43,354 nucleotides of DNA from Opitutaceae bacterium (lineage in GTDB: Bacteria; Verrucomicrobiota; Verrucomicrobiia; Opitutales; Opitutaceae): assembly GCA_030648295.1 (NCBI GenBank), contig JAUSID010000130.1, positions 1-43,354 on the forward strand, read 5' to 3'. Below, piece after piece: positions 850-15,000 of the stretch (position 1 is its first letter; every line of letters begins with the position of its first letter). The notes under the pieces were generated by a model, which was not told the origin of the DNA, did not search any database, and saw nothing but the letters and a program-made list of their open reading frames with translations. The translations under genes were made by a program, and so were the position numbers.

Positions 850-1749
850 TTAGAACGATCGCGAAGTCTTGTCGTTCGAATACTGCATGAGGAAATCATC
901 GAACGCCGGAGGAACACTCCAGTCAGGCACAAGTTGCCGCGTCAGATACTTCATTCCAGCAAATGCGGATTTGAGGGCATCTGATAGCTCATTTCGGTCA
1001 AGACGTGCGCTTACGCGCACCGACGACAGTTCTATCGACGAAAGCAGAACTTCCACACGCCGGCCTAATCCGAACGATGGCAGAGACGCACCGCGGCGTA
1101 GCCGAATTTCGCGCAGAAGCCGGAGATTGGTTTCGACTAGCTGCCGATGCAGCGAATATTGCACTGCCACGAGTTCACCGCGATCCAGTCGCTTCATGGC
1201 TACTACCATATTGACAAGAAAGAGATCGGCCAACTCGCGAACAGCGATATCTCGCAGTCTCACGCCAGGCATTTCGTTTACGACTCTGGAGTATATATCG
1301 CCCGACAAATGCGCGCCCTTCAAGAATCGGTAGCCCGTCCGCATGCTTGTAGCCATTTCGTTGAGCGCATCGCGAATGAAACGGACTTTTCGATGGAGTC
1401 CAAACCGCATAGCCCAACGAGCAAGTCGCATCTGCGTTTTACTCACAATTACTACGTCCAACTGGCCATCACTAAATATCACCGTCATTTTATTGGTGCC
1501 ACCGGTCGCCGGCTGTATTGCACAAAAGCATAACCGATGTGTTGGTAGTGCGCGTGTCCAATCGATTTCGTACACTCTTCTTCGATTGCTTGTAACTACG
1601 TGTAGATCGATATCTGACCATTCGTCGGCATGATGCGTTTCCAGTGCACCGTTGGCCCCAGAGCCATATAGCACAGCTGATTCGATTGTAGGCTCCGCGG
1701 TCAGCCAGGCGACGATGGCAGCCAGAAAAGCCGAGTCGGGCATGTTCAT
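850..1749 (-). CDS. Nucleotidyltransferase-domain protein (aminoglycoside-adenylyltransferase-like fold)
   Basis: A 299-residue protein. Near the N-terminus it has VLYGSGANG (G29-S30), then SDIDLHVV (D46 and D48). This is the GS(x)nDxD metal- and nucleotide-binding signature of the polymerase-beta nucleotidyltransferase superfamily, with spacing like ANT/AadE or Lnu-type enzymes. The rest is helical and I cannot assign a substrate. It could be an antibiotic-modifying enzyme or an uncharacterised relative. The frame extends upstream to a GTG at 1779, but ATG 1749 is preceded by GGTGAGG at a good distance, so I chose 1749. It lies 91 bases downstream of the kinase/ketosynthase operon on the same strand. 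Its composition is AT-richer than most of the window, suggesting transfer, next to transposon relics. Confidence 0.7.
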   Translation of the reverse strand: MNMPDSAFLAAIVAWLTAEPTIESAVLYGSGANGALETHHADEWSDIDLHVVTSNRRRVYEIDWTRALPTHRLCFCAIQPATGGTNKMTVIFSDGQLDVVIVSKTQMRLARWAMRFGLHRKVRFIRDALNEMATSMRTGYRFLKGAHLSGDIYSRVVNEMPGVRLRDIAVRELADLFLVNMVVAMKRLDRGELVAVQYSLHRQLVETNLRLLREIRLRRGASLPSFGLGRRVEVLLSSIELSSVRVSARLDRNELSDALKSAFAGMKYLTRQLVPDWSVPPAFDDFLMQYSNDKTSRSF

Positions 1750-1840: not shown

Positions 1841-3619
1841 TTACAGCTTCCGAAGCGAAATTAGAATCTCGGTGCCTTCAATTCCCGGACCAGCATGAAT
1901 ATCGCCCCGGTGTAATCGAAGGATCTCTTTCGCTAGAAACACTCGCAAGCGCCCTTGGTTAGGCACAGACCCGTTCGCGGGTTCCGGAAGGATTCCTTCG
2001 AGTTCTAGGTGTTTGCCTTTGAGCGATAGCAAAGCAGTCACGTCCGGTCCGGTTCCCGCTGAGCGGACCTTTAACGCAAGATCTCTCAGGCCTTGTTCAG
2101 GGCGATTTTCGCCCAACGTTCGAATAAGCGCGCGTATGGCAAACTCCAGCAACTTCTTGCTGGCGTTTAGCGTGACCGGGTCGGGACCAACCTCGACACG
2201 AACGCCGAGCGAATGGCCGACATGCTGTGCGATATCACGAACATCGATACTGGCTGCCTCGGCTTCGTGAAGGCTCTGCATGAGTGCCAGATTCTCGTTC
2301 AACGCCTCGAGATTCGCGACATCCATTTTCATCGTTTCGAGTAGTGGGAATGGTAACGGGCGATCCGGACCTGCCTGCCGGAACGTCGCGAGCGAAACCA
2401 AGGCATTTCCCAACTCGTGGCTCAAAGTGAGTGCGAGTTCCTGCAACATGTCACGGCGTCCCGCGCGTTCACGTGCCTGCGCATCATGCACCTCTCCGCT
2501 CGCTTCCTCCCAAAACGCCCAAACGCCGCCTGTTTCCGTGATGATTCCGGCCCGAACCCTGAATGGCTGTTCCACGCTCGGGGTAATCCGGCAGACTTGC
2601 CGGTTACGGCGTGCCTGACCGATTGCATCGCGTACCACCAACGGGACGTGTCTGGGCGCATCTTCATCGCGACCCAGCACAAGCGTGCCGGGCAAGTATT
2701 TGGCTCCCACGTTTGCCTGTTCGGCAAGATGATTAAGTCGGGTCACCTGTGCAGATTTTGCGAGAAAATGTCGAAGCAGCCGCGCAAAATAAACTACCCG
2801 ATTACGGTCGGCTTCATCATACGGCTGTCCATCGTCACGGACGCCCAGTGCGATAAGGCCAAGCAGTCGACCATTGTCGTGAATGGGGACGAGCAACCGA
2901 GCGCCCCAGAGTGCGAGTCGATTTCGCACCGTCAGTTCCGCGACGGGATCGGCCGGTGTATCCCAGTTTGTGCCGTCGATTACGGCGGGATGACTTTCAA
3001 AAAATCCGACGAGCGGATCATCCGGCGCGAAAAAGGAAGTCCCTCGATCAGCACGAAAACCGTCCGGCTCTCGGAGAAAAAACACCGCATGTGACGCCCG
3101 CAACAAATGCCGTGACGCTCGGCGAAATTCCGCCAGCAATCGATCACGCGTATCGAGGTTCTCGATGGCTCCTTCGAGGAAATCCCACAGCTCTGCTGCG
3201 TCCCCCGTTGGCGGACGTTGCACTTGCCTAGCCGATTCGCTACGCCGAGTTTTTTCCCCCAACATCTCAACGAGTGATTGCTTTTCCGCGACTTCTTCAA
3301 CCAATGGGACGAACTCGCGCAGCCGCGTGGTGCTTTCCTCGTAAGACAGAAACACCTTTGCACGTCGCGCCATTTTCGCCTGTTCGAACGGAAGGCTGCG
3401 TGGCTCTCCGACGTAAATGGTTGCGCACCGAACAAGCGATTGCGGCAGCGTAGACTCAGCGACTGCATCCAGGACAACCAAAGCGGAGAAACCGGGAGCT
3501 GTGCCCCCAGGAAACATAGGCGCGGCCAACCGCAATACTATCCGACCGGGGAGCAGTTGACGTTCCCAGGCATCGGCCAGCGCGGAGTCAGGCGTCGCTA
3601 GGATGACAAGGGTTGGCAT
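1841..3619 (-). CDS. GAF-domain sensor with degenerate histidine-kinase core
   Basis: A 592-residue protein with no membrane segment. Residues 1-110 look like a pseudo-receiver (hydrophobic strand, ALVVLDAV, then IYVGEP). A GAF-like region follows at about 150-290, containing RLLVPIHDNGRLLGLIALG. Around residue 401 is a HisKA-like helix, LTLSHELGNALVSLATFRQ, with a candidate phosphoacceptor His401. The ATP-binding half is very divergent: I see no clear N box, DxGxG or GTGLGL box, only a terminal strand pattern ending GTEILISL. It may therefore be a phosphotransfer or scaffold protein and not an active kinase. It is the last gene of a four-gene operon, and its ATG overlaps the end of the upstream kinase gene by 22 bases. 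Membership of this operon supports a signalling role. Its partner and ligand are unknown. Confidence 0.7.
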   Translation of the reverse strand: MPTLVILATPDSALADAWERQLLPGRIVLRLAAPMFPGGTAPGFSALVVLDAVAESTLPQSLVRCATIYVGEPRSLPFEQAKMARRAKVFLSYEESTTRLREFVPLVEEVAEKQSLVEMLGEKTRRSESARQVQRPPTGDAAELWDFLEGAIENLDTRDRLLAEFRRASRHLLRASHAVFFLREPDGFRADRGTSFFAPDDPLVGFFESHPAVIDGTNWDTPADPVAELTVRNRLALWGARLLVPIHDNGRLLGLIALGVRDDGQPYDEADRNRVVYFARLLRHFLAKSAQVTRLNHLAEQANVGAKYLPGTLVLGRDEDAPRHVPLVVRDAIGQARRNRQVCRITPSVEQPFRVRAGIITETGGVWAFWEEASGEVHDAQARERAGRRDMLQELALTLSHELGNALVSLATFRQAGPDRPLPFPLLETMKMDVANLEALNENLALMQSLHEAEAASIDVRDIAQHVGHSLGVRVEVGPDPVTLNASKKLLEFAIRALIRTLGENRPEQGLRDLALKVRSAGTGPDVTALLSLKGKHLELEGILPEPANGSVPNQGRLRVFLAKEILRLHRGDIHAGPGIEGTEILISLRKL

Positions 3620-5598
3620 GGGAACGTGACACGGAAAATCGCCCCCTTCCCAGGCACGGGCGGGTCGACCGAAATACTGGCGTTCAAGTTGGAAAGAATA
3701 TCACTGCAAATCGCAAGGCCCAGCCCAAAACCCGTCGATTTTGTTGTCTGAAATGGCTGGAAAAGCCGCGGACGAATCTCCGCTGGCACACCAGGTCCGC
3801 TATCAGCTACGGCCATTTCAATGCCAACGGCGGTGTTGCGCGTTCCGATTCTCACCCACCGGCCAGCACCCTCATGCGACTCGGCTGCTTGAATTGCATT
3901 AAAACAAAGGTTAAGCATGACCTGCTTTGCTGCCGAAGCATCAGTGTACGCGCGATCGGGCACAGCTTGAAAATCGGTGAGGAAAAGCACATTTTTTTGC
4001 GCTGCTTTGGCCGCTACTAAGTCGACACCAGCCTCTAATACGGGATGTAGGTCGATTAACTCCGCAGAATATGCGCGCGGTGAGGCGAGGTCCAAAAGTT
4101 GCTCAGTAAGCTGGTCAATCCGCCCGACTTCGCCGCTAATAAGTCGGAAGAACTTTTCCCGAAAAGCGGGGTCATGATGGTGGGTTGGAAGCAGCTGTAC
4201 GAACGTTTTGATTGAGACGAGTGGATTCCTGATTTCGTGTGCAAGACTAGCGCCAAGAAGACCTACGGTGGCGAGTTGCTCCGCGTGTTGAACTTTTGTA
4301 GAAAAGTGTGCGCGTTCAAGCGCCGCCTGCATAATTGAAGCCAATTCCATCAATTGGGTGACCTGTGGATATGTAAATGGACGCCTTGCTGCACCAACCG
4401 CCACACCAACAAGGACGGATAGAACGGCTCCTTCCTCAAGAACCACTACACCCAAATTATGTTTTGATAAAAAGGCCCGTACAGCGATCCGCTCAGTGGT
4501 AATGCGTTCTCGAGTCAGTCGCTCCGGCGTTGCCCATCGCAGTTGCTTCAAGGCTTGAATAACGATATGGTCGCCCGGGAGCTCGATCCCGTCGCCACAT
4601 AACAAACCCTTTGTTCCGGAAATAATTACGGCGTGCTCGGCTTGACCCCAGCCCCTTAACAACTGTTGAAACGAGCGCTCGAGAGTATCGAGTCGCGTCT
4701 CTCGTTGCGCAGTTGCGAATGCCGCCTGTCTCGCCGCTAGTCCTTCAGGCAAGAATTGGAATTTTCGGTCCAGCCAAGCATTGGATTTTGCGGCAATCCA
4801 TAGGACTCCCATCGTTGTAAGCAAGAGTGCAGCTGTCTGCGAAAGGACTGCGAGGAGCAATTTGTTCAATCCAAACGCGGTGACAGCGACAATCGTCACA
4901 AGCGCCGTCTTTTCTACGACCACGAGCAGTATTTGGCGGGCATCAAACATTCTGTGCGACGTGATCGCGTAACCGGTCCCGGCGTAGAATACCAAGACTG
5001 CGAGTGGCTGTAATCGCCTATAAAATGGGTCATTGGTAATGGCACTGAGCGCAATTAAGCCATAAATAATCGCGGCAACAACACAACCGCCGCCGAGCCA
5101 TACGAGCAACTCCTGCCGTCGAGCGCCAATGAGGGTGTTGAGGTCCTTAATAGCGGTTCGTAGCAACACGATGTAATACGCAATGAGTGCCACATAATAG
5201 GCAGGATACGCCCAACCGCGTAGGCGTTGAACTTCCGTCGAATAAGAGGGAATAAACCACTCGGTAAATGGTAGGATGCTTGCAAGCAGCGGGAAGATAA
5301 ACCATCCACAGTTTTGCCACACCCACTTACGATCTGTCAGATCCAAGTCATCCAAAATGCTTTTTTTTACGATCCAAAGAGTCAGAGGTACAAAGCCCCC
5401 GACAGCGCATGTCCATCGCAACCATATCAGACCGTCTGTAGATAGCCCAGTCATATGGCTGCACGCCAGCCAAGCTGCAACGGTGAAAGATGAGACAAAA
5501 ACGGCGCGGTTTACAGCGCGGCCCGCATTCGCCCATAGAATCAATACACCAACAAGGGTCACCACGATGGCGGCAAACGATGCGATCGAAAAGCTCAT
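3598..5598 (-). CDS. Membrane sensor histidine kinase (PrsK-like layout)
   Basis: A 666-residue kinase. The first 300 or so residues contain many hydrophobic segments, beginning IASFAAIVVTLVGVLILWA and followed by YYVALIAYYIVLL, and form a multi-pass membrane sensor. A GAF-like linker follows. The HisKA block SLAHEIRNPLVSIKTFVQLL places phosphoacceptor His at about residue 454. The catalytic domain has MLNLCFNAIQAAE (N box), VADSGPGVP (G1), FQPFQTTKSTG (F box) and GLGLAI (G2), so it should be active. The layout resembles PrsK of exosortase systems, but nothing here proves that link. ATG 5598 was chosen because it shares ATGA with the stop of the upstream ketosynthase-like gene, indicating translational coupling. 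An earlier in-frame start at 5622 would lie inside that gene. Confidence 0.85.
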   Translation of the reverse strand: MSFSIASFAAIVVTLVGVLILWANAGRAVNRAVFVSSFTVAAWLACSHMTGLSTDGLIWLRWTCAVGGFVPLTLWIVKKSILDDLDLTDRKWVWQNCGWFIFPLLASILPFTEWFIPSYSTEVQRLRGWAYPAYYVALIAYYIVLLRTAIKDLNTLIGARRQELLVWLGGGCVVAAIIYGLIALSAITNDPFYRRLQPLAVLVFYAGTGYAITSHRMFDARQILLVVVEKTALVTIVAVTAFGLNKLLLAVLSQTAALLLTTMGVLWIAAKSNAWLDRKFQFLPEGLAARQAAFATAQRETRLDTLERSFQQLLRGWGQAEHAVIISGTKGLLCGDGIELPGDHIVIQALKQLRWATPERLTRERITTERIAVRAFLSKHNLGVVVLEEGAVLSVLVGVAVGAARRPFTYPQVTQLMELASIMQAALERAHFSTKVQHAEQLATVGLLGASLAHEIRNPLVSIKTFVQLLPTHHHDPAFREKFFRLISGEVGRIDQLTEQLLDLASPRAYSAELIDLHPVLEAGVDLVAAKAAQKNVLFLTDFQAVPDRAYTDASAAKQVMLNLCFNAIQAAESHEGAGRWVRIGTRNTAVGIEMAVADSGPGVPAEIRPRLFQPFQTTKSTGFGLGLAICSDILSNLNASISVDPPVPGKGAIFRVTFPCQPLSS

Positions 5599-6818
5599 GT
5601 TCGCACCATTGTTGCGTCGCACCGTCGCAATAGAATCGCAGCATTTGTGCCCGACAACCCATGCGAGTTGATAAGCGCAAATGAAAACTGCAGATATCGC
5701 GCCTGACTAGATAAGTTCAGCCGACACGCAGGATCTGCATGTCTCCAATTTACTGTCGGAGGAATGAATGATTGCTGAATGCCGAGAGCGGCGCAACCAA
5801 TCTGGATCGCGCCCGCCGCAGCAAACGGGTTTCCGATTGCGCCTTTAATCGAAACCGTGGGAATTCGATCTAAGCACTCCCCGAATATTTCTCTCAATAC
5901 AGCGGCCTCAACCGCATCGAGCTCGCGATGTCCGGGGCCCCACGCACTAATCATGTCCACTTGGCCCGGGGAAACGCCTGCATTCGCTAGACAGAGACGG
6001 ATCGCTGCATGGAGGCCGTCTCCAGCTCTCTTGCCGGAATCGGTGGCAAATGAGTAACCGGCGACTTCGGCATAGCCGCTACGTGGACTGCTATCCGGCT
6101 CAAGGATCATCATGCATGCGCCCTCGCCGATTACACCTGTCGTCCGCCACAAGTCGAACGGACGATTCAGTTGGTCGGCTCGTTCGGAGGTCGCTGGTGA
6201 TAACTCAGCCATTTTCAGCTCGAGCATCGGATGATAATAAAGGGGCGCCTCCGTCCCTCCGCATATTGCCAAATCGGTTTCTCCGTTAGCGATCATTGCT
6301 GCTGCGTGGCCGATTGCATCGGCACCGGAACAACATGCACTTTGCAGAGAGAGTGTTCTCCCAGCTCCAATATATTGCGCAACGGCCGCAGCAATCGACG
6401 CCACAGGTCCTTGAAACACGACCCGTGTCAGTCCGAATCGCGGCCCCTTTCGCGTGACATCCTCAATCGTTTTGTTGATCACTCCGCTATCCATCAGCGA
6501 GGTACCGGTTACCACGACGGGATCGAGCGCACCAGCAACTGACCGTGTTAGTTTCGCATCCTCAATCGCAAGTTTCGCAGCAGCCAACGCAAACTGAGTA
6601 TGACGCGGCATTCGTTTTGTGCCGTGATTGTCGAAAAATTCAGCGATATTGAATTTCTTGACTTCGGAACCCACAAAAGCGCCCGCGTCTTCGGGGAACC
6701 GTTTGATCGGGTGGACGTGACTCCGATTTTCCAGAATTCCCGCTTGAAACGCCTCTTTCCCGACACCCGCCGGCGTTACGAACCCGATGCCTGTGATCTT
6801 GACGCGCCGGCGCTTCAT
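5595..6818 (-). CDS. Beta-ketoacyl-ACP synthase-like protein with altered active site
   Basis: A 407-residue thiolase-fold protein of FabF length. The start VKITGIGFVTPAGVG and the nucleophile elbow SACCSGADAIGHA (Cys162) are typical of condensing enzymes, as are the GGTE strand and the C-terminal NSHGLSGTNAAILL. The two catalytic histidines are not. The HGTGT position reads SAWGPGHRELD (Trp293), and the KSxxGH position reads SIKGAIGNPFAAAG (Lys325 kept, Asn330 in place of His). Either it belongs to a ketosynthase subfamily with different chemistry, or it is a binding or acyl-transfer protein. ATG 6818 was chosen because it shares ATGA with the stop of the receiver-kinase gene, and its own stop shares ATGA with the membrane kinase. 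A fatty-synthesis-like enzyme between sensor kinases is unusual, and no acyl carrier protein is visible nearby. Confidence 0.82.
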   Translation of the reverse strand: MKRRRVKITGIGFVTPAGVGKEAFQAGILENRSHVHPIKRFPEDAGAFVGSEVKKFNIAEFFDNHGTKRMPRHTQFALAAAKLAIEDAKLTRSVAGALDPVVVTGTSLMDSGVINKTIEDVTRKGPRFGLTRVVFQGPVASIAAAVAQYIGAGRTLSLQSACCSGADAIGHAAAMIANGETDLAICGGTEAPLYYHPMLELKMAELSPATSERADQLNRPFDLWRTTGVIGEGACMMILEPDSSPRSGYAEVAGYSFATDSGKRAGDGLHAAIRLCLANAGVSPGQVDMISAWGPGHRELDAVEAAVLREIFGECLDRIPTVSIKGAIGNPFAAAGAIQIGCAALGIQQSFIPPTVNWRHADPACRLNLSSQARYLQFSFALINSHGLSGTNAAILLRRCDATMVRT

Positions 6819-7966
6819 CCTTTCGGGGCCGCGGGGAAGGTCAGGCACACGGTCGTTCCTTTTCCGAGAACCGATTCCAATGCGAAGCTCGCGCCATGCG
6901 TCCCCGCAAGGTGACGGCAAATGCTCAGGCCGAGCCCGGTGCCACTCGCCTTGCTGCTAAACCCGCCGTGCAGTGCACGCTTCACCCGGTCGGGTTCCAT
7001 CCCCGCCCCGTTATCCGCGACTGTCAGTTCGACCTTCTGCTCGCGGTGCAGGAAAGTCACCACCACCGTCTTCGCCCCGGCTTCGAGCGAATTCTTGAGC
7101 AGGTTCTGGAGAATCCGCATCAATTCAAAACGCGAGCCGCGTATCCACACGGCCGAGTCTCCAGCCATCTGAATGGCCGAGTTTCCAAAAAAGATGACTT
7201 GCTTAACTTCCCTCGCGACCGCCACCAGGTTGACGCGTTCGAACTCGGTCGCCTGCTTCGACGCCAACCGCCAGTTCTCCGATAGGTGGTGGCAGTATTC
7301 CGCCGCCTTTTCCACCATCTCGCAATAATCCATCAGCTTGCGCGCGGTATCCGGATCACGCTGGCTCAACACGCGCGCCTCTTCCGCCACGAGCGAGGCG
7401 TAGCCGATCACCACGGTCAGCGGATTGTTGAGATCGTGGACGAGTTCGACCGACGCGCGCGCCTGCCAGATATGGGGTTCGTTCGCCTCAATCTCGCGCT
7501 TCAACGCGACGTTCATTTCCTGCGCGGCGTGAGCGGCGTCCGCCTGGGCCCGCCGCAGTCGTGTTGCCTGCGCCTGCTTCCGCACCGATTCGATCAGTTC
7601 GGCAATGTCTGGTGGCTTGCGCAGGTATTGGTTCGCTCCTGCGAGCATGGCTTGCTGGGCGGTGAGCAGAGTGCCGTATCCCGTCAACATGATGACCGAC
7701 ACATGGGGATCGATCTTCCGCAATTCCTCCAACGTGCGAATGCCATCCATCTCCGGCATCCGAATATCCAATACGACCGCCGCATATGCCTTCGACTGCA
7801 ACTTCGCCAGCGCCTCTCGCGCCCTCTCCGCCGTGTCGACGGCGAACTCGCCGGACAGGCTGAACGCGATGGATTCGCGCGGTCCGTATTCGTCGTCGAC
7901 GACGAGGACAGGGGGCTTTTCGGCAGCCTGAGGAAATGCGGTGGCCGGCGGTTTCTCGGTCAGCAC
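6815..7966 (-). CDS. Receiver-histidine kinase fusion
   Basis: A 383-residue cytosolic protein. Residues 18-130 form a receiver domain: acidic pair VDDE, phosphoacceptor Asp67 in VVLDIRMPEMDG, the conserved Thr in VIMLTGYG, and Lys117 in LRKPP. After a short helical linker the HisKA block ELVHDLNNPLTVVIGYASL carries His177. The ATPase follows with LQNLLKNSLEAGA (N box), VADNGAGM, GGFSSKASGTGLGLSI and a final GTTVCLTFP. It is thus an input-REC kinase without a DNA-binding output, expected to pass phosphate to or from its operon partners. The start codon is GTG at 7966, and no Shine-Dalgarno is seen. It leads the operon and its GC is like the housekeeping genes, unlike the three genes after it. 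Confidence 0.85.
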   Translation of the reverse strand: MLTEKPPATAFPQAAEKPPVLVVDDEYGPRESIAFSLSGEFAVDTAERAREALAKLQSKAYAAVVLDIRMPEMDGIRTLEELRKIDPHVSVIMLTGYGTLLTAQQAMLAGANQYLRKPPDIAELIESVRKQAQATRLRRAQADAAHAAQEMNVALKREIEANEPHIWQARASVELVHDLNNPLTVVIGYASLVAEEARVLSQRDPDTARKLMDYCEMVEKAAEYCHHLSENWRLASKQATEFERVNLVAVAREVKQVIFFGNSAIQMAGDSAVWIRGSRFELMRILQNLLKNSLEAGAKTVVVTFLHREQKVELTVADNGAGMEPDRVKRALHGGFSSKASGTGLGLSICRHLAGTHGASFALESVLGKGTTVCLTFPAAPKG

Positions 7967-8132: not shown

Positions 8133-8207
8133 TGGAGGCGCGGGTCGGAATCGAACCGACGCATAGAGGTTTTGCAGACCTCGGCCTTACCACTTGGCTA
8201 CCGCGCC
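8133..8207 (-). tRNA. tRNA-Cys (GCA)
   Basis: Read on the minus strand from 8207, a full cloverleaf is present. The acceptor stem GGCGCGG pairs with CCGCGCC. There is a short D arm, an anticodon stem GAGGT/ACCTC with loop CTGCAAA (anticodon GCA), and a T arm GTCGG-TTCGATT-CCGAC. The discriminator is U and the CCA end is encoded. It sits between the signalling operon and the ParA-like gene. Confidence 0.95.
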
Positions 8208-11303: not shown

Positions 11304-11998
11304 TGGATGAGAACCTGACACAACTCGAGCAGCGCATCGGGCACACCTTTCGTGATCGCACGCTGCTAGAGCGCGCCATCACGCACGCGTCGTTTCTCCA
11401 GGATCATCCCGAGGTCGGCGAGAGCAACCAGCGGCTCGAGTTTCTGGGCGATGCGGTGCTGCAGCTGATCCTGACCGAGGCGCTGTTCAATCTGTTTCCC
11501 ACCGAACGTGAAGGGATGTTGAGCAAGCGCCGCGCCGCACTGGCAAACGGCACGTTCCTGGCGCAACTGGCCACCGAAGCGGGAATCGATCGATCGCTGC
11601 GGCTCGCCACGAGCGAGGAATCGACCGGCGGTCGCACGCGCGCGTCAGCGCTGGAGGACGGAATCGAGGCGCTTATCGGCGCGGTTTACCTCGACAGCGA
11701 CCTGCCCACGGTTCGCACCGTGGTGCTCGCGCTTTATGGCGATATCGGCGCCCGGTTGGCGTTGGGGGAGGAAGTCGAGAACCCCAAAGGCCGGCTGCAG
11801 GAACTCATCCAGCCCATCTACGGCAACAACGCACTGCGGTATGAAGTGACTGACATTGCGGGCGAGGATCATGCCCGCGATTACGAGGTGCGCGTTTACT
11901 TGCTGGAGCGCCCGCTCGGCTCCGGACGCGGACCCTCCAAGAAACTCGCCGAGGAAGCCGCGGCCCGCGAAGCGCTTGCCGAATTGCAGAAGGACTGA
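11303..11998 (+). CDS. rnc: Ribonuclease III
   Basis: A 231-residue double-strand-specific RNase that processes rRNA precursors and structured mRNAs. The signature NQRLEFLGDAVLQLI (residues about 34-50) carries the catalytic Glu and Asp. The second acidic cluster is in ASALEDGIEALIGAVYLD. A C-terminal double-stranded RNA-binding domain runs from NPKGRLQELIQ to SKKLAEEAAAREALAEL. The usual NERLEFLGD box reads NQRLEFLGD; that first position is not one of the main metal ligands. ATG 11303 was chosen because it aligns with the family start and overlaps the upstream stop. Mfd follows after 83 bases on the same strand. Confidence 0.95.
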   Translation: MDENLTQLEQRIGHTFRDRTLLERAITHASFLQDHPEVGESNQRLEFLGDAVLQLILTEALFNLFPTEREGMLSKRRAALANGTFLAQLATEAGIDRSLRLATSEESTGGRTRASALEDGIEALIGAVYLDSDLPTVRTVVLALYGDIGARLALGEEVENPKGRLQELIQPIYGNNALRYEVTDIAGEDHARDYEVRVYLLERPLGSGRGPSKKLAEEAAAREALAELQKD

Positions 11999-12081
11999 GC
12001 GGCGCCTCCTCCCCGACGAATGCTTTCTCTCCAACCGGCTTGTGGGAACCCACCCGCGACCTACATTCGAGCTTTTTCCCG

Positions 12082-15000
12082 ATGCCCGTCTCCACGCTCC
12101 AGCGCCGCAAGGTCACCGGTGTCTGCCCGCCCGCCCGCGGTGCAGTCATCGCGGAGCTTTGCCGCCGGCATCCCGCGCCCGTGTGGCTGGTCGTGGCCGA
12201 GGATCTGAAAATCGCCGAGCACCTGGCGGAGGACATCGCGTTTTTCCATGGCGCCGGCGGTGATCCGCGCCCGCAACAGCAACTCGTCTTTCCCGAATCC
12301 CTCCAGGAAAGCCGCGACATGCGCGAGGCATTCGCCGCGTCGAGCGATCGCCTCACCGTGCTTTCGCGGCTGCGCGCGCTGCGCGGGCTCACCTCGACTC
12401 CGGACACTCTCGTCATCACCACGACTCCGGCGGCGCTGTTGCAGCCAGTGCCGGCGCTGGAGGAATTTGCCACCCGCGAGCTCACGTTGCGCCGCGGCCA
12501 GGTGCAGCCTTTCCAGGCGCTGCTCGATCAGCTGCAGAAACTCGACTACGACTCGGAGGCGGTTTGCGAGGCGCCCGGCCATTACGCCATTCGCGGTGGG
12601 ATCATCGACGTGTATCCGGTAACCGCCAACACGCCATATCGTCTCGATTTCTTCGGCGATGAAATCGAATCGATCCGCGAATTCGATCCGGTGACGCAAC
12701 GCTCCGGCGCAGCGGTCGAGAGCATCAGCGTTGCGGCCTCGCCCCACGTGCAACTCGACGCCTCAAAAACCGGCATCGCGGATTATCTCACACCCAGTGC
12801 ACACCTCGTGTTCGTCGAGCCCGCGTCTCTCGACGAGGAATTCAGTGCGTTCGCGCGCGAAGGTTCGGACGGACTCACGCCTTTGCTGGAGAAATGCGCG
12901 GCGGCCTTTGGCGTCAGCGACATCGACGAGGCGAGCGCGTTGTTCGATGCCGGCGCCGGGGAGATTACTTGGGACAGCGAAAGCCTGGTGCACCACCGCC
13001 GCTACCCGGACGACGCACTCGTGGCGCAGGAGCGGCTCCAGAGCGAGGAGGAAGCGCGCGCGCTTTTCCTGCAGCAACTGGTTGCGTGGGCAAAAGGTGG
13101 TTACGACGTGGCCATCGTCACGGCAAAATCAGGTGAGGAACAGCGGGCCCAGGAAATCCTGGCCGACGACGCGGCGCTCAAGGCGCTGAAGCCACGCTGG
13201 CTCCGCGGCACACTGAATGAAGGGTTCCGGATCACGTTTCACGAAGGAGCGGAGTTTGGGTCGCTGGAGCCGGCGCGCCCCGGTGCCGGCCGGGCGCGAC
13301 ACCGCGGCGAAAGCGCCGCAGCTCCATCGGTCGGCGCGGGCTTGGTCGTCGTCACCGAAACTGAGATTTTCGGCCGGCAGCGACAACGCCGCCCGGCACT
13401 CAATCAGCGCGCGATCGCGCAGCGCGCGCAGATCGACCAGTTGCTGGACTTTTCCGAGCTCGTCGAAGGCGACTTCGTCGTGCACTTGCAGCACGGCATC
13501 GCGCTGTATCGCGGATTGACGAAACTCGACACGGCGCAGGGCCTCCGCGAGGTCATCTCGCTCGAGTTCGACGACCACGTGACACTGCACGTGCCGCTCC
13601 AGGAATCGCACCTGATCAGCCGGTATGTCGGGTTGAGCAAGGCCAAGCCGCAACTCGGCCGCATCGGTTCCAACCGTTGGGAAAAGGCGCGGCAGGCCGC
13701 CGAGCACGCGACCATCGATCTTGCGGCGGAGCTCCTGCGCATCCACGCCGCGCGTGAAGCGCAGGCCGGGTTCGCGTTTCCCGCGGATACCACTTGGCAG
13801 AAGGAATTCGAGGCGTCCTTCCCGTTCACGGAAACGCGCGACCAGCTGAGCGCCATCCAGGAAACCAAGGTGGACATGGAGAAAACCCGCCCGATGGATC
13901 GCCTGATCTGCGGCGATGTCGGGTTCGGCAAAACCGAGGTGGCGATTCGCGCTGCGTTCAAGGCCGTGCAGGGCGGCCGGCAGGTAGCGGTGCTCGTGCC
14001 GACCACGGTGCTCGCGCAGCAGCACCTCAACACATTTCGCGAGCGGATGACCGGCTATCCGATTTCAATCGAGATGCTAAGCCGCTTCCGTTCCCGCGGT
14101 GAACAGCGCAAAATCATCGAGGCGATTGCTGGTGGCCAAGTCGACATTCTCATCGGCACCCATCGGCTGCTCCAGCGCGACATCCAGTTCAAGGAACTCG
14201 GCCTCGTCGTCATCGACGAGGAGCAGCGGTTCGGCGTGAAGCACAAGGAGGTGTTCAAGCGCATGCGCGAAATGGTTGACGTGCTCTCGATGAGCGCGAC
14301 ACCGATCCCGCGCACGCTCTACATGGCGCTGACGGGCGCGCGCGATCTCAGCGTGATCGAAACGCCACCATCGAATCGCCATCCGATCCAAACCGTGGTG
14401 AAAACCTACGACGAAAAGGTCGTCGTCGACGCGGTGCGGCATGAGATTCGGCGAGGCGGACAGGTGTTTTACCTGCACAACCGCGTCCAGACGATCGATT
14501 TGGTCGCGGCGCGTCTCCGGGAAATGATGCCGGATCTGAGCATCGGCATCGGGCACGGCCAGATGCACGCGAATGATCTCGAGAAAGTGATGACGGAGTT
14601 TGTGGCCGGCAATTACCACGTCCTGGTTTGCACGACGATCATCGAGAGCGGGCTGGATATCCCAAACTGCAACACGATCGTCATCGAGGGCGCGGACCGG
14701 TTCGGGCTTTCGCAACTCTACCAACTCCGCGGCCGGGTCGGACGATTCAAGCACCAAGCTTACGCATATCTGCTGCTGCACCGGCACACGCGATTGCTCG
14801 AGGTGGCGCGACAGCGACTCACCGCGATGCGACAGCACAACCAGCTTGGCGCCGGTTTCCGGATCGCGATGCGCGACCTCGAGCTGCGCGGCGCCGGAAA
14901 CCTCCTCGGGGCGGAACAGAGCGGCCACATTGTCGGCGTCGGCTTCGAGCTTTATTGCCAGCTGCTTCGGCAGTCGGTCGCGCGGTTAAAGGGCGAAAAG

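Follow-up and report, generated by a model that had tools for sequence, protein, structure and literature searches.

The window analysed here is one whole contig (JAUSID010000130.1, 43,354 nucleotides) of the 9.1-Mb genome of an Opitutaceae bacterium (GCA_030648295.1, labelled G000 in our comparisons), and the system in question is a minus-strand operon that joins a ketosynthase-like gene to genes of the histidine kinase type. Four genes lie in the order and at the place given by the original prediction: a receiver kinase (RRHK), the ketosynthase-like gene (KS), a membrane kinase (MHK) and a GAF/degenerate kinase (GAFHK) (Table 1). The coupled junctions claimed for them are also present: both ATGA overlaps can be read in the sequence, and the 22-base overlap between MHK and GAFHK follows from coordinates 3619 and 3598. 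A scan for sigma-70-like promoters found none on the minus strand within the operon and two matches in total, both on the plus strand, where shuffled sequences give 3.5; scans of this kind are weak evidence. The operon has a fifth gene, absent from the earlier four-gene description, which encodes a nucleotidyltransferase (NT). The spacing between NT and GAFHK is ~60-100 bases in the window, and in most relatives the two genes overlap or nearly touch; because of this gap, we infer the co-transcription of NT in this genome from the relatives. The KS-kinase operon is conserved and KS diverges in step with the MHK membrane part, which together suggest that the system senses a lipid-like compound.

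Table 1. Genes of the operon and the KS codons at the compared active-site positions (window coordinates)
Feature	Positions	Strand	Description	Basis
RRHK	6815..7966	-	383 residues; receiver, HisKA and HATPase; receiver-controlled kinase layout (as LvrB)	Pfam
KS	5595..6818	-	407 residues; FabF-fold, ketosynthase-like; Cys162 kept, Trp293, Asn330, new His297 and His386
KS Cys162 codon	6333..6335	-	acyl-accepting Cys position	alignment to 1j3n
KS Trp293 codon	5940..5942	-	first catalytic His position
KS Asn330 codon	5829..5831	-	second catalytic His position
KS His386 codon	5661..5663	-	just before the loop reading GFGG in FabF
MHK	3598..5598 (ATG 5598; GTG 5622 possible)	-	multi-pass histidine kinase; HisKA, HATPase_c
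GAFHK	1841..3619	-	592 residues; receiver-like N-terminus, GAF, helices resembling a dimerization and histidine phosphotransfer domain with His401, degenerate ATPase part
NT	850..1743 (GTG 1779 possible)	-	LinB-like nucleotidyltransferase, fifth gene

KS contains the N- and C-terminal ketoacyl synthase domains (PF00109 and PF02801, Pfam), has the thiolase-like ketosynthase fold and is a full-length homologue of FabF (match to PDB 1j3n, 4.4e-49). Against the fabF model TIGR03150 it scored 223.3 bits, below the cut-off of 493.75. Its active site was compared among the KS orthologues and loci of the window's family, Opitutaceae (set T1), the lower-scoring kinase-linked KS loci across Verrucomicrobiota outside T1 (set T2) and canonical ketosynthases. 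Cys162 was found in 39/39 T1, 34/34 T2 and 15/15 canonical sequences, and in KS the Lys of FabF is kept alongside it. At the position of the first catalytic His, T1 has Trp (37/38) or Cys (1/38), whereas T2 has His in 30/34 and the canonical enzymes in 15/15. The second His position is taken by Asn (25), Ser (7) or Thr (6) in the 38 T1 sequences, by Asn (27/34) or His (2/34) in T2, and by His in all 15 canonical ones. Conversely, His386 is present in 38/38 T1, 32/34 T2 and 0/15 canonical sequences, and His297 in 38/38 T1 and 11/34 T2. These tallies superseded earlier alignment rows (cL022, cL028 and cL029), which were in wrong frames and were ignored; the KS of L056, cut at a contig end, counts as a gap at the later residue positions and was not placed in the tree. 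One T1 sequence (L079, genome G072) keeps Cys162 and has Ser in place of the second Cys in the CC motif.

The T1 enzymes have therefore kept the Cys and lost both His of the Cys-His-His triad of FabF and KAS II. In ketosynthase chemistry, decarboxylative condensation does not proceed without the histidines, yet acyl loading on the Cys may persist. The original prediction had called KS a condensing-enzyme homologue; the homology to FabF agrees with this, but both condensing histidines are gone in this lineage. The residue pattern of T1 is that of the non-elongating KS0 domains of type I polyketide synthases, which, according to the available text of PMC4661987, have lost the decarboxylation His; KS differs from them in being free-standing, in a kinase operon with no polyketide synthase modules, and its Cys is at the normal place. 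In T2, most sequences keep the first His, and the prevailing His and Asn suggest catalysis. A quick tree of the KS sequences put T1 on one side of a branch (support 100) and the canonical enzymes on another (support 100), with T2 in between, and two T2 sequences (L123 and L164) were drawn beside the canonical clade. This topology is compatible with a single origin of the kinase-linked KS, and likely intermediate forms (Cys-His-His, Cys-His-Asn and Cys-Trp-Asn) are still present in living genomes. Chain-length factors are ketosynthase partners that lack the Cys; this role was ruled out for KS, which keeps the Cys, and the profile scan of the T1 loci showed no further KS.

In RRHK, Pfam identified a receiver (Response_reg, 1.5e-25), HisKA and HATPase_c, and the five receiver (REC) and four kinase residues are invariant (35/35). 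The protein thus presents a layout of receiver, dimerization and histidine phosphotransfer, and catalytic domains (Rec-DHp-CA) with intact REC residues, and it matched the NCBIfam LvrB model over its full length (6.8e-17, 61.7 bits), far under the cut-off of 500. The H, N, D and G kinase residues of MHK are likewise invariant (38/38). Its N-terminal membrane part, ~residues 1-285 as judged from hydropathy and domain divergence, evolves fast. MHK is multi-pass: a simple hydropathy scan of the window protein marked hydrophobic stretches at four places in the N-terminal part and a further one at 391-409. In GAFHK, GAF was the sole domain above the Pfam cut-off, and no HATPase match reached E 1. 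All 37 sequences (37/37) retain His401, whereas the presumed N-box Asn is found in 2/37 and the presumed G1 Asp in 0/37. Because these residues are lost and Pfam finds no ATPase domain, GAFHK is likely a pseudokinase with an intact phospho-accepting His, as the earlier description of a degenerate kinase implied. Its AlphaFold model was poor (predicted local distance difference test score, pLDDT, 54.5) and was used for secondary structure only; the first 100 residues show a receiver-like alternation of strands and helices. Of the three histidine-kinase-type proteins originally proposed, RRHK and MHK possess all the catalytic residues tested and the intact kinase and receiver residues of two-component proteins, but GAFHK has only the His and does not look able to bind ATP.

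NT gave a Pfam match to Polbeta below the cut-off (2.5e-4). Its predicted model (pLDDT 79.3) matched the fold of the lincosamide nucleotidyltransferase LinB (3jyy, E 1.3e-8, 16% identity), and the Gly, Ser and three Asp of the nucleotidyltransferase fold are invariant (37/37). The likeness to LinB is one of predicted fold, with a template modelling score (TM-score) of only ~0.5; NT has a fixed place in a sensory operon, and no resistance role is implied. Apart from KS, none of the five operon genes encodes a further fatty-acid-synthesis domain recognizable by Pfam.

With KS as the query, clear orthologues (E 1e-66 or better) were found in 16 of 56 other genomes, in the order RRHK-KS-MHK where contigs permit. 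The T1 regions were scanned with protein profiles and start codons were picked by a script; L037-L039, whose contigs are the same as those of L041-L043, and L143, whose KS is identical to that of L035, were left out. KS, MHK and GAFHK are consecutive and co-directional in all 37 distinct KS-bearing T1 loci that cover them (18 and 19 in two sets), and NT is nearby in the same 37. The genes overlap at the KS/MHK junction in 18/18 and at the MHK/GAFHK junction in 23/23 loci, and RRHK and KS share a 4-base overlap in 14/18; in the junction scan the NT start codons assigned in L053 and L055 were wrong. Hence the gene for the enzyme is coupled to that for the membrane sensor kinase, as in autoinducer synthase/receptor pairs. 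The adjacency of RRHK is more variable: it is ~1.5 kb away in L137 and L138, NT stands between RRHK and KS in L130, L131, L133, L134 and L140, and in L132 and L136 the region upstream of KS gave no RRHK match at the usual score level. Among 252 genomes of the family, GAFHK was found in 92 and KS in 83, with both in 77, KS only in 6 and GAFHK only in 15. In 74 of the 77 genomes with both, a single contig carries the two genes, and 3.2-3.8 kb separate their starts. Eight of the 15 GAFHK-only genomes were inspected: in six the contig stops short of the KS position, and two (G030 and G191) are complete there.

The system is not confined to this family. When the KS profile was run on 387 Verrucomicrobiota genomes, 16 matches exceeded 540 bits, all in the window's family, and after a gap further matches followed from 349 bits down in many other families. 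We examined 38 of the 39 non-T1 matches of at least 263.6 bits (G216 was left out): 34 loci with wide flanks, two with short flanks (L088 and L092) and two FabF-like loci (L124 and L161). In 36 of the 38, the next gene downstream of KS, on its strand, encodes an MHK-family kinase. Both exceptions are the FabF-like loci, in which the active site is the canonical Cys-His-His and KS groups with the canonical enzymes in the tree; L161 is without an MHK-type kinase, and the contig of L124 ends ~250 bases past KS, leaving the downstream side out of view. As a control we used these two together with 18 canonical KS loci with 5-6 kb flanks, the downstream side being in view in 18 of the 20 (L190 ends ~300 bases past KS). 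No same-strand MHK-family gene followed KS in any of the 20 (18 informative), and the kinase-profile matches all scored 79 bits or less, whereas T2 MHK scored 190-349 bits where the gene was complete in view. Since kinases adjoin KS in 37/37 T1 loci and 36/38 loci of the T2 range, KS is no accidental neighbour, and chance adjacency was rejected on these counts, on the 0/20 FabF-like controls and on the co-occurrence across genomes. The same gene order thus recurs in other genomes, and KS relatives that are never beside kinases, which would have spoken against the original prediction, were not what the search returned.

Profile-profile alignments connected T1 and T2 over 373 columns for RRHK, 656 for MHK and 585 for GAFHK with the second kinase of the T2 loci (HK2). 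Through the last of these GAFHK is therefore homologous to a kinase with a retained ATPase domain (HATPase_c in HK2 of L115, 3.4e-20, Pfam). The HisKA_7TM profile matched one T2 MHK (5.4e-5), below its curated cut-off. The 34 T2 loci with wide flanks, some of whose contigs end too early to judge the neighbours, contain HK2 in 31, a divergent RRHK in 27, a FadL-family protein in 25 and a full-length NtrC-type regulator in 15 cases; Pfam confirmed Toluene_X (FadL) in 5/5 and Sigma54_activat in 3/3 proteins tested. The earlier statement that none of the proteins has a DNA-binding output accordingly holds for the four window proteins, in which Pfam finds no such domain, but not for the phylum, where that regulator lies downstream in many loci. 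When the T2 regulator was used as a query in Opitutaceae, many matches of 32-39% identity were obtained, which are only generic, and the T1 output regulator was therefore not identified by it. Other T2 neighbours recognized by profile were an FAD (flavin adenine dinucleotide) oxidase (13/34), a methyltransferase (8/34), PlsY (7/34), a FeeM-like acyltransferase-aminotransferase (6/34) and OlsB-/OlsA-like proteins (1/34).

Co-divergence was measured from Kimura distances in 33 complete T1 sets, out of 38 that have a full KS, and in the 26 complete ones of 34 T2 sets. The mean T1 distances were 0.57 for RRHK, 0.73 for KS, 0.77 for GAFHK and, within MHK, 1.32 for the membrane part, 1.06 for the middle and 0.56 for the kinase part. 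In T1, KS and the membrane part of MHK correlated with r 0.69, and with partial r 0.56 when RRHK, the MHK kinase part and GAFHK were used as controls (n=33, 0/999 permutations). All nine other partial values were 0.19 or lower, including KS with the MHK middle (0.08) and with GAFHK (-0.01). The same pair came top of 11 in T2 (partial r 0.46, n=26, 0/999), where the MHK membrane part with the middle gave 0.39, RRHK with HK2 0.32 and KS with FadL 0.20 (24/999, n=22). Such co-variation of enzyme and sensor is expected of an autoinducer synthase/receptor pair. Along KS, the T1 signal was 0.48 at residues 1-60, the far end, and 0.27 at 331-390, next to MHK; in T2 the signal by window was weaker and more even.

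From the observed anatomy, conservation, residue changes and co-divergence, and from the two genomes where neither KS nor NT was found, we infer the ligand, the chemistry and every phosphotransfer step of the following model. KS would make, modify or present an acyl ligand that is detected by the adjacent MHK, which feeds a REC-kinase relay; we favour this reading tentatively, as possible but short of probable. KS is placed as the signal-side partner of MHK because the T1 membrane part, and not the middle, follows KS, because NT is absent along with KS, and because FadL stands beside many T2 modules. An acyl group may be loaded on Cys162, and the transmembrane domain of MHK would detect the resulting ligand. 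In Opitutaceae KS might carry out acyl transfer instead of decarboxylative condensation, whereas in the wider phylum condensation may still take place at the Cys-His-Asn site. The small molecule handled by KS is probably also the one that NT modifies. From MHK the phosphate would most likely pass to the receiver of RRHK and so switch on this REC-controlled kinase, in the way that LvrA activates LvrB in Leptospira; GAFHK, a likely pseudokinase with an intact His, would serve as a scaffold or take part in phosphotransfer. A regulator encoded elsewhere would provide the output in this lineage, and the phylum-wide version often has its own NtrC-type regulator. The lipid-signal role of the original prediction gains circumstantial support from FadL beside T2 and from the KS/MHK-membrane co-divergence; on the other side stand a T1 KS without both histidines and a FadL not found in this genome. 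Possible, though rather less likely than not, is the further proposal of a phylum-wide, so far undescribed Verrucomicrobiota signalling system. In it, the transmembrane domain of a dedicated kinase would read an acyl signal that is self-made and that a FabF-derived enzyme produces or presents; the enzyme and its sensor would co-diverge into specificity groups, and Opitutaceae would have swapped the Cys-His-Asn site for a new Cys-Trp site with a relocated His.

Several observations weigh against the reading in which KS supplies the ligand of MHK. The loss of both His in T1 argues against condensation in the Opitutaceae lineage. G030 and G191 encode RRHK, MHK and GAFHK without KS, and no KS was found anywhere in either genome; since they keep the three kinases, KS is not indispensable to these. 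The NT profile also found no match anywhere in the two, compared with a match in 7/7 KS-bearing genomes searched alongside, a shared absence that counts for the reading and not against it; as the two genomes may be related, it may go back to one event. No FadL was detected in 7/10 Opitutaceae genomes tested, including that of the window, and FadL was rejected as a fixed part of the system. Among the controls, a kinase gene of 68-79 bits adjoins KS tail to tail on the opposite strand in L192, L193 and L194, and L189 has a 74-bit kinase match on the same strand ~1.2 kb downstream of KS. The KS pairing in T2 is less exclusive because KS there also correlates with the MHK kinase part (partial r 0.27) and middle (0.25). 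Finally, the T1 signal is uneven along MHK (0.58 at residues 1-60, 0.22 at 61-120, 0.36 at 151-210 and ~0 past ~residue 270), and a matched enzyme-sensor pair and a block exchange of neighbours would each give the co-divergence seen, which cannot separate the two.

The same residue changes would also suit a KS that acts as a direct intracellular sensor subunit, binding acyl-acyl carrier protein or acyl-coenzyme A on Cys162 without turnover, docking on MHK or GAFHK and reporting the state of fatty acid synthesis. A Cys kept throughout T1 after the loss of both decarboxylation His, as in the KS0 domains of the available text of PMC4661987, and the constant overlap of the KS and MHK genes fit this role, but the T1 KS tracks the membrane part of MHK and neither its middle nor GAFHK, the His and Asn kept by most T2 enzymes suggest catalysis, and NT is absent together with KS; we regard it as the main rival, though somewhat unlikely. 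KS could instead be an ordinary lipid-biosynthetic enzyme, merely co-regulated with kinases that control its pathway, with MHK not sensing its product. The lipid-type genes near the T2 module (PlsY, the FAD oxidase, the FeeM-like protein and the OlsB-/OlsA-like proteins) would be natural company for such an enzyme. This explanation is distinctly unlikely, given that the window operon has no other fatty-acid-synthesis domain among its five genes, that the catalytic His are lost in T1 and that KS co-diverges most strongly with the membrane sensor in both sets. That KS and the 5' part of MHK were only exchanged together as neighbours, with no functional matching, is very unlikely, for although the first windows of MHK give the highest T1 correlations (0.58, 0.44), which vanish farther on, the far end of KS is no weaker than the near end, T2 is also paired and more evenly so, and block exchange would itself suggest a matched pair, such as that exchanged as a block in the agr locus of Staphylococcus.

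The reading in which MHK detects an acyl ligand from KS has precedents in CqsA/CqsS, LuxM/LuxN and LqsA/LqsS, where the gene of a signal synthase adjoins that of a multi-pass kinase receptor; those synthases are not ketosynthases, and they have no REC-kinase, pseudokinase or NT partner. In the PpyS/PluR photopyrone system of Photorhabdus, a ketosynthase signal is read by a dedicated receptor, although PpyS belongs to another KS branch and PluR is a LuxR-type regulator, not a kinase. The commonest T2 site equals the Cys-His-Asn triad that the available text of PMC4578411 gives for PpyS. RRHK shares the Rec-DHp-CA layout of LvrB, which in the LvrA-LvrB-LvrC system of Leptospira is activated by the upstream kinase LvrA (PMC13269768); as far as the available part of that source extends, the Lvr system apparently has no ketosynthase or NT. 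The kinase part of MHK is closest to AtoS (2.7e-50) and one T2 regulator to AtoC (1.7e-109), with scores far under the curated cut-offs, and the present system differs from AtoS/AtoC and NtrB/NtrC by its extra kinases, KS and FadL. Compared with FabF and KAS II, which it resembles in fold, full-length homology and the kept Cys and Lys, KS falls below the TIGR03150 cut-off, has lost both catalytic His in T1 and is linked to kinases.

No description of a multi-kinase system with a ketosynthase as its fixed partner was found in the open-access papers searched, subscription papers and preprints being outside the search, in line with the original view that the combination is not a described system. 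Two-component systems and synthase-receptor pairs are already known, and, as far as the literature searches reach, the ketosynthase as a fixed multi-kinase partner is the new element. Verrucomicrobiota are abundant in soil and water, and neither a lipid signal nor a cell-cell signal is known to us from this phylum, though no search was aimed at one; the conserved enzyme-kinase pair with a co-varying sensor is a concrete candidate for one. If this proves true, a core fatty-acid enzyme would have been turned into part of a sensory device.

Some loci have further features. A tRNA-Cys lies at window positions 8133-8207 on the operon strand, ~165 bases upstream of RRHK; no tRNA was found beside the operon in 27 related loci scanned, so it is not a common feature. 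Seven of the first 18 T1 loci (L041, L047, L049, L051, L053, L054 and L055) have a second, divergent MHK relative (189-310 bits) upstream of RRHK, followed by a receiver-domain gene in L041 (Pfam) and L054 (by eye), and the two genes are possibly a duplicated sensor pair. In L045 a further kinase-like protein (11450-13441), in which Pfam finds only a HATPase domain, follows NT. In T2, L115 (11545-13892) has a methyltransferase and then OlsB-like and OlsA-like ornithine-lipid acyltransferases directly after RRHK, and in L116 (13355-14989) a FeeM-like N-acyl amino acid synthase domain is fused to a class-V aminotransferase, an arrangement that looks unusual and has its relatives in the six T2 loci counted above.

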